Source: Bacteroidales bacterium (lineage in GTDB: Bacteria; Bacteroidota; Bacteroidia; Bacteroidales; UBA12077). Taken from it: a DNA stretch of 32,564 nucleotides. How positions within the stretch are numbered: position 1 is the first letter of the stretch; each line of letters opens with the position of its first letter. The stretch spans positions 1-32,564 of the forward strand of contig JAIPAF010000005.1 of assembly GCA_021740225.1 (NCBI GenBank), in the 5' to 3' direction. Positions 19,410-32,564 of this stretch are shown one piece after another. The notes beneath the pieces were generated by a model, which saw nothing but the letters and a program-made list of their open reading frames with translations, was not told the DNA's origin and searched no databases. The translations under genes and the position numbers were made by a program.

Positions 19410-20381
19410 ATGGCAAAAATAAAATATCGTTTTGACCCACATACACTTACCTACCAAAAAGTCAACAAGTCAATCAATAGAAAGTTACGTCAGGGACTGA
19501 TATATTTTGGTGTAACGATTGTGGCGGCTGTTGTGTTTAACATTATCTTTACAAAATACTATAATACCCCTAAAGAACATACTTTGAAAAGCGAGAACGA
19601 GGAGCTCGTTTTTAAATATAAAATGCTGTCGGATAAGCTTGATGAGGTAGAGAGGAAATTGAATAATATAGAACAACGAGATGACAACCTTTACAGGCCA
19701 ATTTTTGAGATGGAACCTATACCCTCGCAGGTGCGGGAGGCAGGTTTTGGTGGTACCAACCGGTATGACGAGTTAAGGAAATATTCTAATTCGGAGGTTA
19801 TGATTTCCACCACCAAGAAACTGGATAAAGTGGAGAATGAATTATATATTCAGTCGAAATCATTCGATTCGGTGATTAAAGAGGCCCGTAATAAGGAAAA
19901 GATGATTGCCCGTATTCCGGCGATACAGCCTATAAGTTTAAAAGATTATGGAAGGATAAGCGATTATTATGGAAGGAGGCGCGATCCCTTTACGGGAAAA
20001 ATAAGGATGCATCATGGAATGGATTTTACGGGTCCCATAGGTACTGATATTTATGCCACAGGGAAAGGAGTAATTGAAGGAGCCGGATATTCTGCTTATG
20101 GTTATGGTAAGGAAGTATTGATCAATCATGGATATGGGTTTAAAACCGTTTATGCGCACCTGCATCAAATCGATGTTGAAAAGGGCGATACAGTATCACG
20201 TGGTGAAGTGATCGGAGCATTGGGGAATTCCGGACGCTCAACCGGACCGCACCTTCATTATGAAGTCAGAAAAAACGGCCGACCAGTGAATCCATTTTAT
20301 TACTACTTTGATGACATCTCCGCCGAGCAATACGACAAGATGATCGCTGCTGCAGAAGAGAACAGGAGACCAATGGATTAA
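19410..20381 (+). CDS. M23/LytM family metallopeptidase with N-terminal TM and coiled coil (copy 1)
   Basis: HHGMDFTGPIGTDIYATGKG...VYAHLHQ...GNSGRSTGPHLHYEVRKNG; Zn-ligand motifs intact. Confidence 0.93.
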   Translation: MAKIKYRFDPHTLTYQKVNKSINRKLRQGLIYFGVTIVAAVVFNIIFTKYYNTPKEHTLKSENEELVFKYKMLSDKLDEVERKLNNIEQRDDNLYRPIFEMEPIPSQVREAGFGGTNRYDELRKYSNSEVMISTTKKLDKVENELYIQSKSFDSVIKEARNKEKMIARIPAIQPISLKDYGRISDYYGRRRDPFTGKIRMHHGMDFTGPIGTDIYATGKGVIEGAGYSAYGYGKEVLINHGYGFKTVYAHLHQIDVEKGDTVSRGEVIGALGNSGRSTGPHLHYEVRKNGRPVNPFYYYFDDISAEQYDKMIAAAEENRRPMD

Positions 20382-20389
20382 TATATTCT

Positions 20390-21361
20390 ATGGAAAGATA
20401 TAAGTATAAATATAATCCCCGGACAGTAAGCTATGAAAAGGTGAAGCTTACGTGGAAGGATAAATTTATGCGTTTCCTCACCTATTTTGCCGCTACATTG
20501 GTATTGGCCGTTCTGTACAATCTAATATTTGGTGCTTTTTTTGATACCCCTAGAGAAAAGGAGCTGATACGGGAGAATAATCAACTCCAACTGCAATATG
20601 AAATATTAAACGAGAAGTTCGATCGGGTTGAAAACGTCTTAAAAGATCTTCAGGAAAGAGACAACAACATTTATAGAGTGATCTTTGAAACCGATCCTAT
20701 TCCTAGTTCGGTAAGAGAAGCAGGATATGGCGGTTCAGAAAATTATGAAGAGCTAAGAAGATATGAAAACTCCGATTTGATCATTAGAACCGCTACTAAA
20801 CTGGATAAATTATCTAAACAGCTTTATGTCCAGTCAAAATCCTATGATGAGCTCATCAGTTTGGCCAAGAACAAGGAAGAGATGCTTTCATCTGTTCCTG
20901 CCATTATGCCGGTTTCAAATGAAGATCTTACACGTACGGCTTCAGGTTTTGGTTGGAGGATCCATCCCATTTACAAGATAAGGAAGTTGCATGAAGGCAT
21001 GGATTTCACAGCACCTGTCGGCACAAAAATTTATGCCACGGGTGATGGTATAGTGGAAACGGTTAAAAATTCCAAGCGGGGTTATGGCAAAAGAGTGATT
21101 ATTAACCATGGATTTGGTTATAAAACTCGTTATGCCCACCTGAATGAATTTAATGTGCGCAGGGGTGAAGAGGTTCAAAGAGGCGATGTTATTGGGTATG
21201 TAGGTAACTCGGGATTATCGGTTGCTCCCCATCTGCATTATGAAGTGGAAAAAGATAACGAGAAAGTGAATCCGGTGCATTACTATTTCAATGATCTCAC
21301 TCCCGAACAGTATGAAAAAATGATATTCATCTCCAGCAACAGTGGACAATCATTGGATTAA
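20390..21361 (+). CDS. M23/LytM family metallopeptidase with N-terminal TM and coiled coil (copy 2)
   Basis: HEGMDFTAPVGTKIYATGDG...RYAHLNE...GNSGLSVAPHLHYEVEKD; 323 aa, same length as copy 1. Confidence 0.93.
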   Translation: MERYKYKYNPRTVSYEKVKLTWKDKFMRFLTYFAATLVLAVLYNLIFGAFFDTPREKELIRENNQLQLQYEILNEKFDRVENVLKDLQERDNNIYRVIFETDPIPSSVREAGYGGSENYEELRRYENSDLIIRTATKLDKLSKQLYVQSKSYDELISLAKNKEEMLSSVPAIMPVSNEDLTRTASGFGWRIHPIYKIRKLHEGMDFTAPVGTKIYATGDGIVETVKNSKRGYGKRVIINHGFGYKTRYAHLNEFNVRRGEEVQRGDVIGYVGNSGLSVAPHLHYEVEKDNEKVNPVHYYFNDLTPEQYEKMIFISSNSGQSLD

Positions 21362-28391: not shown

Positions 28392-29433
28392 CCGGTAAGT
28401 GATCGCTGAATCCTCCTTGATACCGGTAACCCGAATAGGTACGAAAGGGCTTTGTACCGGTGTATTTCTCATCTTCTGTAATCAAAAACGGAGTCAGCAT
28501 AATATGCGCATCATTTTGGGAGGTCTTCAAACCTGCGTTTTTGGTCAGCAGGCTACCCGATACATGATACTGATCAAAAATCTGCCAGAAACCCTGGTAT
28601 TTATATGATCCATAGGGAAGTTTTTTCCAGTGACTGGAGAGATTATACATTTTATCGGTTTGTACTGAATCAAGATTGTTTTGTGTCTTAAGATACTTTG
28701 TTAAACTTTCGGCTTCCGGTAGTTCATTGAAATCGCCGGCAGCCACTATGGAAGATTCAGGGTTGTTTTTGAAAAGGGAATCAATATGGTGGCGCAGTAC
28801 CTGGGCGGCTATTATGCGTTTGGGGCGGCTTTGCAATTCTCCCTGCCATTTGGAGGGCCAGTGGTTGAAAAAGATGTGGAGGGTATCGGAAGCTTGAACT
28901 GTTCCTTTGATGTACAGTATATCTCTTGTTCTTTCAAATTGCTCGGGAAGGGGTACGGAAATATACCGGAACGACACAGGCTGAAACTTTTCTTCCCGGT
29001 AGATTGCAGCAACATCTATTCCTCTGAAGTCGGGCGATTCGTTATGTATTATTTTGTATTGATATTTGGAAAAGGGCGTACGGTGAAGCAGGTCCTCCAG
29101 GACTTTTCTGTTTTCGATCTCACAAAAGCCTACCAGTCCGGGAGGCCCCCATCCGCCTGCTGAAACAATGACCTTATAGATATTTTCAATTTTATTGCGG
29201 TATCTATACCCATTCCACCGTCTTATTCCTGAGGGTGTGAATTCCTCGTCTCCGGTCAACGGATCGTTGACTGTGTCGAATACATTTTCGACATTATAGA
29301 ACATTACCCGCAGGGTCCGGTTTTTCTCCGGATCGAACGAAGGAGCTTGCTCCTGCGCAAAGAGGGAGGGAAGACAAATCGTATTTATCCAGAATAACAC
29401 AATCCATATCCGCAAAGAGTTTATCATGCTCAT
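28345..29433 (-). CDS. Secreted endonuclease/exonuclease/phosphatase (EEP) family protein
   Basis: Signal-like N-terminus; LRVMFYNVENVFDT, GFCEIENRKVL, FFNHWPSKWQG, VAAGDFNELPE, FSDHLPVILDFHW. Confidence 0.92.
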   Translation of the reverse strand: MSMINSLRIWIVLFWINTICLPSLFAQEQAPSFDPEKNRTLRVMFYNVENVFDTVNDPLTGDEEFTPSGIRRWNGYRYRNKIENIYKVIVSAGGWGPPGLVGFCEIENRKVLEDLLHRTPFSKYQYKIIHNESPDFRGIDVAAIYREEKFQPVSFRYISVPLPEQFERTRDILYIKGTVQASDTLHIFFNHWPSKWQGELQSRPKRIIAAQVLRHHIDSLFKNNPESSIVAAGDFNELPEAESLTKYLKTQNNLDSVQTDKMYNLSSHWKKLPYGSYKYQGFWQIFDQYHVSGSLLTKNAGLKTSQNDAHIMLTPFLITEDEKYTGTKPFRTYSGYRYQGGFSDHLPVILDFHWCQPGDLGY

Positions 29434-30851
29434 TCTTTTTTTGTTCCCGTTCCCGGGATGTATTCGTAGGCTCCGAGGTCGGGTGCTTCATCCGAATTTC
29501 TCCTGTTGTTCATTATATCCTTGGAATAAATTTCTCCGGTTTCCACGTCTCCTGTATCTATTGCAGGTGATAAAGTATCAAGCCTGAAATTATAATCCTC
29601 TATGGAAATGAAGCCGGGGTCTTCATTTTCAATAATGTGCTCATAATTTCTGTTCGTGGTTTGGATTTCCTCTCCGGTTTTGATCAGACAATGCTCAAAC
29701 CTGTAATTTAATACTCCAGAAGATTTTAAAGAATCGAATCCTATTTCATATCCATTGTTGCCGTAAATGATGCAGTTGTTAAACCGGGCTTTTTTGAGGG
29801 CTCTTCCCTGTTTTTCTTCATTATAGTTGTTTAGAAGCAACGATGGGGTATGCCTTGTTGCACTTGTCCAATAATTTGCGATGGTGGTGTGGTAAAATTC
29901 GTATGATCCTCCTAAAGTGAGCGCTACCGCGTATTCCCCACAGTCACTGATAACATTGTTGTAGGCTTTGATGGTGGTTCCTTGTGCATAGATACCGGCA
30001 TAGGTCATGTGTTCAATCTTTGAATTTGATAGTGTTAAGGTGGGGGATGCAGTACTGCCCAAGGTATCCACCTGTATCCCGATAATGGCATTTTTGATAT
30101 TGGTGTAGTTGATAACGTTGTTGTGGCTCCCAGGCATAAGCCAAACCCCATCCCATTGTCCGGGGGTATCGCTGTACTCCTCTTCCAGCCGATCACTGGT
30201 AAAAAGCACGGGATCCTCTTTGGTGCCATCGCTGATTAGGCTGCCTGCCACATAAAATCGGGAATTCCTGTGGAAATGGACTTTGGTGCCTGGTTTAATG
30301 GTAAGGGTATGTTGGGTGTCCACCAATGCTGAATTATAAACCAAATAAGGTTTGTCAGCTTGCCAGGTCTGTGTTTTAAGCACTTCCCCGTTTATCAGAT
30401 GGACATCCTGTCCCCAGGCTACCAGTTTGATATCCTGTGTATTTCCATTGGTGTTGAGGATCACTGAATCCTTAACCACCAAAGGATTATTGTCGTTGTT
30501 TGGTTCAATGGTAACTTCTACAAAAATGTACAGGCTGTCATTGGCATTGAGCTCTATGTTGGACATACCGGATGTTTGGGTGCCATCAATGTTGAGCCGG
30601 TAATCGGAGTCTTTACCCCCGGCAAGTTTTATGGTATTTATGTTGATCTTTTTATTATACGGATTCTTTACAGTGAACTTTTTGGTCGTTGAGCCAATGG
30701 TTGTGAATACCGTATCAAACATAACTGTATCCGTGGAAAAACTCAGCTTCACGGAAGGGTCGTCAACAAATCCCTCTTCTTCGCAAGAGATTAAAAGTCC
30801 ACAAAAAACGGATATAATGGTCAGCAGAATGAAAGTCTTTCTTTCGTACAC
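29430..30851 (-). CDS. Predicted surface lipoprotein, right-handed parallel beta-helix type
   Basis: GTG start; FILLTIISVFCGLLISC lipobox followed by EEEG; KPGTKVHFHRNSRFYVAGSLISDGTKEDPVLFTS, repeated N..I..C-type rungs, DTGDVETGEI...APDLGAYEY. Confidence 0.8.
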   Translation of the reverse strand: MYERKTFILLTIISVFCGLLISCEEEGFVDDPSVKLSFSTDTVMFDTVFTTIGSTTKKFTVKNPYNKKININTIKLAGGKDSDYRLNIDGTQTSGMSNIELNANDSLYIFVEVTIEPNNDNNPLVVKDSVILNTNGNTQDIKLVAWGQDVHLINGEVLKTQTWQADKPYLVYNSALVDTQHTLTIKPGTKVHFHRNSRFYVAGSLISDGTKEDPVLFTSDRLEEEYSDTPGQWDGVWLMPGSHNNVINYTNIKNAIIGIQVDTLGSTASPTLTLSNSKIEHMTYAGIYAQGTTIKAYNNVISDCGEYAVALTLGGSYEFYHTTIANYWTSATRHTPSLLLNNYNEEKQGRALKKARFNNCIIYGNNGYEIGFDSLKSSGVLNYRFEHCLIKTGEEIQTTNRNYEHIIENEDPGFISIEDYNFRLDTLSPAIDTGDVETGEIYSKDIMNNRRNSDEAPDLGAYEYIPGTGTKKE

Positions 30852-31462: not shown

Positions 31463-32564
31463 ATGGTGTTTTTGATAAACGATATCTCTTCCCGCAGAAA
31501 ATTCCTCAAACGGTTCACTGGCTTGTTGTTTTTTCTTTTGCCCATTAGCCACTTGTTCTCCTGGGCTTTTTCAACTACAAAAGGATCCCGTCGATTTATG
31601 GATTCTTTTGGCAATACTGCCAGCCCGGTGACGAAGCAGCCGGGGAACAAATCCTTTGAGCCTCGCTATCTGGAGCTGCACCGCTCCGGAGAACTGAAGC
31701 GCAGGGGCAATATCTTGTGGGAGATGATGAACATTTGTGACCTATGTCCCCGGGAATGTGAGAATAATAGGCTGGATGGCCAGAAAGGCGATTGCGGTTC
31801 CACTTCCCGGTTGATGATCTCTTCATTCAACCCCCATTTTGGAGAAGAAGAATCTCTGGTAGGTGACGGTGGGTCGGGTACCATTTTCATGACCCACTGC
31901 AGTCTGCGGTGTGTATACTGCATCAACTGGCAGATAAGTAGGGAAGGAAGGGGAGAGAATCGGAACATTGATGAACTGGCTTCCATGATGCTGCGTTTGC
32001 AGAACATCGGATGCAAAAATATCAATGTGGTTACCCCTACGCATTACTCTCCCCATATTTTGCTGGCATTGGATAAAGCGGCGAAGCAAGGATTAAGAAT
32101 TCCCCTTGTGTACAATACAAGCGGATATGAGAAGGTGGAAGTGCTGAAACTTCTTGATGGGGTAGTAGACATTTATCTCCCCGATTTCAAATATTTTCAG
32201 AGCAGCATGGCTGCCAAATATTCTTCGGGAGCCCGTGAATATCCTGAAATGGCAAAAGCAGCCCTGCTGGAAATGCATCGCCAGGTTGGTGTAGCCAGAC
32301 CTGCAGACAACGGCCTGATGTACAAGGGTCTGATGATTCGGCATCTTGTTCTCCCCAACGGAGTGAGCGGAACAAAGGATGTTATTGAATGGGTGGCCAG
32401 AATTCTGCCTAAAGATACCTATTTCCACCTCATGGCACAGTATCAGCCTGCCTATGAGGCAGATCAATATTCTCAGATCAACCGGCGAATTACACGCAGG
32501 GAGTATCAGGAGGCTGTCAGTCATGCCCAAAAAATGGGTTTGGCCAATTTGGATGTGCAGGGAA
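31463..32564 (+). CDS. Radical SAM protein of the PflA/PflX-like (COG1313) type with Tat-like N-terminus; partial at window end
   Basis: Open plus frame from ATG 31463 to the window end, absent from the ORF track. MVFLINDISSRRKFLKRFTGLLFFLLPISHLFSWAFS; NICDLCPRECENNRLDGQKGDCGS; CX3CX2C in THCSLRCVYCINWQ. Confidence 0.9.
   Translation, partial: MVFLINDISSRRKFLKRFTGLLFFLLPISHLFSWAFSTTKGSRRFMDSFGNTASPVTKQPGNKSFEPRYLELHRSGELKRRGNILWEMMNICDLCPRECENNRLDGQKGDCGSTSRLMISSFNPHFGEEESLVGDGGSGTIFMTHCSLRCVYCINWQISREGRGENRNIDELASMMLRLQNIGCKNINVVTPTHYSPHILLALDKAAKQGLRIPLVYNTSGYEKVEVLKLLDGVVDIYLPDFKYFQSSMAAKYSSGAREYPEMAKAALLEMHRQVGVARPADNGLMYKGLMIRHLVLPNGVSGTKDVIEWVARILPKDTYFHLMAQYQPAYEADQYSQINRRITRREYQEAVSHAQKMGLANLDVQG

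Follow-up and report, generated by a model that had tools for sequence, protein, structure and literature searches.

Predicted export of a widespread clade of radical SAM enzymes, with a candidate membrane partner

Background

Since SAM and low-potential electrons are located in the cytoplasm, radical SAM enzymes have, to our knowledge, been described only from that compartment or as facing it. The literature that we searched, most of it outside subscription journals, contained no report of such an enzyme being exported. A radical SAM family with conserved export signals, such as the one considered here, would seem to relocate a normally cytoplasmic and oxygen-sensitive chemistry to the outside of the membrane.

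The nearest cytosolic homologues of the protein are what we take to be the PflX-like proteins of COG1313. These share 34–38% identity with it in the body and have the same CX3CX2C motif and N-terminal four-cysteine cluster, but they lack a leader and are split from the exported clade at an SH-aLRT value of 100. A similar N-terminal cysteine cluster is found in the radical SAM protein of the AmmeMemoRadiSam system (TIGR04335/04336/04337), exported versions of which adjoin a membrane protein, SPE, that is described below. However, our protein scores only 19.9 bits against TIGR04337 (cut-off 220), and its gene has no adjacent Memo or AMMECR1 gene. The best solved fold is that of pyruvate formate-lyase (PFL) activating enzyme (3c8f; TM 0.70 by target length, E 1.7e-8). 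That enzyme is cytosolic, however, and only 14% identical to our protein, which falls far below the cut-off of its family model (TIGR02493, 20.1 bits against 231.75).

Results and discussion

A radical SAM gene at the end of the contig

The window, by which we mean the whole stretch of 32,564 bases that was analysed, is the entire contig C111. An ATG at 31463 starts a frame of 367 codons that is free of stops up to the window end. The gene is thus truncated solely by the end of the contig, and complete homologues terminate 0–4 residues beyond the truncated protein. Its features are as follows.

31463..32564, + strand: radical SAM protein, PflX-like and predicted to be exported, truncated at its 3' end where the contig stops (PF04055, 43.7 bits, cut-off 29.5)
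31490..31510, + strand: twin-arginine motif SRRKFLK (residues 10–16), read from the sequence and conserved in the genus and most of the clade
31511..31573, + strand: hydrophobic, uncharged h-region of the leader (residues 17–37), read from the sequence, possibly an uncleaved anchor
31574..31654, + strand: variable linker (residues 38–64) that includes an internal ATG at 31598, 19% identical to the nearest relative
31736..31795, + strand: N-terminal four-cysteine cluster C92-X2-C95-X3-C99-X11-C111, a putative auxiliary cluster, invariant in 41 sequences
31898..31921, + strand: radical SAM motif C146-X3-C150-X2-C153 (PF04055), invariant in 41 relatives

With a PF04055 match above the gathering score and a CX3CX2C motif, the protein belongs to the radical SAM superfamily, as a first-pass annotation had proposed. 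That annotation had also pointed out both cysteine clusters, in the segments CDLCPREC...GDC (C92, C95, C99 and C111) and HCSLRCVYC (C146, C150 and C153), and in an alignment of 41 relatives all seven cysteines are unchanged. The window protein looks like an intact radical SAM enzyme, for which [4Fe-4S] binding and SAM cleavage are predicted. Its description as PflX-like stood as far as the nearest cytosolic relatives and the nearest solved fold are concerned; among family models, it reached the cut-off of Radical_SAM only. No NCBIfam model was matched at its cut-off, and a sequence profile search of the PDB returned nothing at 1e-5.

The N-terminal leader and the start codon

The motif SRRKFLK is followed by a moderately hydrophobic h-region (value 1.99), as in Tat substrates, and the genome encodes the translocase component TatC (contig C108, E 4.9e-66). 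No clear lipobox or AxA site is present, so that the leader may be an uncleaved anchor. An AF2 model places a helix at residues 10–24 with low confidence.

The first-pass annotation had read this segment as a Tat-type leader, with the caveat that the internal ATG at 31598 (M46) could be the true start, in which case the leader would be an artefact and the protein an ordinary cytosolic enzyme. Two relatives (L008 and L011) do begin near the body. However, identity to the nearest relative is 52% in the leader, 19% in the linker around the internal ATG and 85% in the body, so the leader is better conserved than the linker, and Met46 is not conserved among relatives. Moreover, a twin-arginine motif with an h-region was present in 64 of 96 upstream regions of the clade, where shuffling gave an expectation of 1.3 and a maximum of 7 in 1000. 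Judged from this conservation, the leader is no start-codon artefact, and a start at the internal ATG is highly improbable.

Extent of the predicted exported clade

The same layout was present in four genomes of the same genus, and in a genome from another family with KR replacing RR. At least 80 relatives were found among the matches listed in species-representative genomes, from sources that include Bacteroidetes, Desulfobacterales, Nitrospira, Chloroflexi, Acidobacteria, Omnitrophota, Planctomycetaceae and others. In a tree of 109 rows, which is a quick tree calculated without bootstraps, the 95 rows of the clade separate from the cytosolic rows. The 95 members come from about 20 phyla, and their leaders comprise 72 of the Tat type and 15 of the Sec or lipoprotein type; 8 members are without a leader. 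The latter, which include L008, L010, L011, L089, L098, L122 and L134, count against export. On the tree, Sec-type leaders imply at least four changes on starred branches and nine by parsimony, with Tat and Sec labels assigned by eye (KR and RK as Tat; L065, L085 and L109 as Sec). A lipobox-like site occurs in 24 of 89 leaders of the clade, in both Tat- and Sec-type examples.

The alignment of homologues thus retains the leader in the genus and most of the clade, and the earlier proposal of a Tat-exported radical SAM enzyme is supported. It underestimated the scale: a whole clade appears to be exported, and the members with Sec or lipoprotein leaders are mostly those from genomes in which TatC was not found. 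Export of the clade members is strongly supported by comparison of their sequences, in which what is conserved appears to be export and not the motif itself.

The genome that carries the window is a MAG of 57% completeness with 17 further PF04055 matches. No twin-arginine leader was seen in the N-termini of these that were read (L160 is not among these, and the frames of L165 and L166 are incomplete). One of them, L166 on contig C12, is a leaderless paralogue, incomplete in frame, with 44% identity to the window gene.

Leader type and the Tat translocase

Of 66 genomes from relatives, 50 contain TatC; in the other 16 it was not found, a negative drawn from partly incomplete MAGs. Among leader-bearing sequences, RR was present in 37 of 42 with TatC and absent in 12 of 16 without it (Fisher p 8e-6, counting related sequences as independent). 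The 37 include L052, L091, L107 and L131, which were reassigned to RR by eye since the automatic classification under-called Tat leaders of weak hydrophobicity; the p value beforehand was 2e-5. Tat signals are known to be less hydrophobic than those of the Sec type, and in this comparison h-region hydrophobicity was 1.8 versus 2.6 (p 2e-6). Two sequences for which no TatC was found (L085 and L109) have RR with a strongly hydrophobic, Sec-like h-region, while two others (L083 and L116) have an ordinary RR leader, which counts against export. A phylogeny-controlled test yielded four independent pairs, of which about three agree and none disagrees (p 0.25). Leader type thus appears to follow the machinery of the genome, Tat-type with TatC and mostly Sec-like without it, in a trend that is weak once phylogeny is controlled.

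These observations bear on whether the leader is a mere N-terminal membrane anchor, with the catalytic body in the cytoplasm and the enzyme not exported. Viperin, which sits on the ER membrane facing the cytosol, offers a model for such an arrangement. It would satisfy the requirement for SAM and electrons in the cytoplasm, and the window sequence has no clear cleavage site or lipobox. However, an anchor alone would not require the twin arginine that is retained, the lipobox-like sites of relatives imply a body outside, and leader type tracks TatC presence. In addition, two further components considered below are predicted to be outside as well: the SpeE-like domain of SPE and the Memo-AMMECR1 protein that partners the sister family. 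We consider a simple anchor unlikely.

A membrane protein encoded upstream of clade members

In 13 loci from about eight phyla, a gene for a membrane protein of about 765 amino acids with a PF01564 domain, here called SPE, lies directly upstream of the radical SAM gene on the same strand. The gaps range from -37 to +237 bases, often with overlap; L095, where the start call overlaps further, was left aside. In an AF2 model of SPE (mean pLDDT 80.6), seven helices precede a domain with the SpeE fold, and at least six more follow it. By a crude hydropathy count, 9 of 13 proteins have seven helices ahead of the domain, and L083, L087, L119 and L120 have six or eight. In eight clear cases, the N-terminal side is richer in Lys and Arg (17–28 versus 8–11), which places the N-terminus inside and the SpeE domain outside; the spermidine-synthase-like domain is accordingly predicted by this modelled topology to be extracytoplasmic.

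SPE resembles the membrane-fused spermidine synthases (NF037959, MFS_SpdSyn), whose model gave 55.7 and 45 bits with the two SPE proteins tested (cut-off 40). In contrast to these, its SpeE domain is located between seven and at least six helices and is predicted to be outside, and the Asp that we take to be the catalytic residue of SpeE is replaced (VDSTEP to IGLSNP).

SPE homologues were found in 43 of 52 genomes that carry the exported family. However, SPE is common in the window's order regardless (81 of 393 genomes), and there its co-occurrence with the family is not significant (6/16 versus 75/377, p 0.11). A comparison of neighbourhoods found no conserved partner adjoining the window gene or its same-genus counterparts. 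The assembly that carries the window, which is 57% complete, yielded no SPE, Memo or AmrS.

A second radical SAM family with export signals, and NapH/NapG-like neighbours

SPE also adjoins a second radical SAM family with [K/R]R leaders, whose members score 345–365 bits against TIGR04337 (cut-off 220). In the window's genus, SPE paralogues are flanked on one side by a Memo-AMMECR1 fusion whose N-terminus is signal-like and on the other by an AmmeMemo-type radical SAM enzyme with a KR leader. Among 20 further SPE loci from the window's order, a radical SAM gene is adjacent in 14, and each of these genes encodes a [K/R]R leader. In a Nitrospira sp. (L195), a Tat-type AmrS, SPE and a relative of the window gene with a Tat leader follow one another in one locus.

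A NapH-NapG-like protein, below the curated cut-offs of the models, is encoded directly downstream of the clade gene in four loci (L094, L116, L118 and L123). Separately, a Chloroflexi locus (L183, 1047-8350) contains a cluster of three AmmeMemo-type radical SAM genes with Tat leaders, a NapH-NapG fusion lying amid them, and SPE. In L113 and L126, the exported radical SAM gene is located beside a second, leaderless gene that looks AmmeMemo-like by eye, and L113 also has a leaderless Memo-like gene, likewise judged by eye.

The neighbours raise the alternative that the protein is exported by Tat, as many redox proteins are, but serves in electron transfer or metal binding as an Fe-S protein that has retained the fold and performs no SAM radical chemistry. 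The NapH/NapG-like electron carriers beside some members would suit such a role, as would the lack of a known SAM source outside. However, the CX3CX2C motif and the core around it show the invariance expected of an active enzyme, the fold matches that of PFL-activating enzyme, and the recurring partner SPE has a SAM-nucleotide-type (SpeE) fold. A carrier of this kind seems quite improbable to us.

A possible mechanism

The best explanation, to which we assign a probability of roughly 0.7, is a Tat-exported, membrane-tethered radical SAM enzyme with SPE as the early partner of the clade. What can be read from the sequences is the leader, its conservation, its swap to Sec-type leaders, the intact cysteines and the SPE operon in about eight phyla. 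The exported clade would have diverged from cytosolic PflX-like enzymes, and its early partner was probably SPE, a polytopic protein whose spermidine-synthase domain is catalytically altered and predicted to be extracytoplasmic. Tat would carry the window enzyme, folded and loaded with its clusters, across the cytoplasmic membrane. The body would reside on the outer face, tethered by an uncleaved signal in the window lineage and by a lipid anchor in many relatives. There it may perform SAM radical chemistry on an envelope protein, peptide or lipid. The neighbours and their folds suggest that SPE could bind or supply a SAM-type nucleotide, and that the NapH/NapG-like proteins next to some members could supply electrons. 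Our proposal that SAM radical chemistry occurs outside the membrane, with SPE binding or moving a SAM nucleotide for two exported families, one of them an exported AmmeMemoRadiSam, is tentative, and we rate it at somewhat below even odds.

Several considerations count against export. We know of no route that brings SAM outside. Quinol-fed donors of the NapGH type do not, by ordinary reckoning, have a potential that is low enough. In addition, Sec delivers proteins unfolded, and Fe-S clusters would consequently need to be formed outside. A clade exported by two routes in about 20 phyla makes the existence of SAM and reducing power outside the membrane testable, as well as the way in which a protein exported by Sec acquires its Fe-S cluster. 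It also bears on the role of the Memo-AMMECR1-radical SAM trio, which has human homologues and a function that is a long-standing unknown.

Other genes in the window

A gene for a neelaredoxin-type superoxide reductase (TIGR00332; 30942-31382, - strand) is divergent from the radical SAM gene, and a gene of this type is also near the radical SAM gene in one of the same-genus genomes (G001, locus L033). The region 29430-30851 (- strand) encodes a lipoprotein-like protein with a choice-of-anchor Q domain. Two tandem paralogous genes of 323 amino acids each, with the appearance of M23-type peptidases by eye, are located at 19410-21361.
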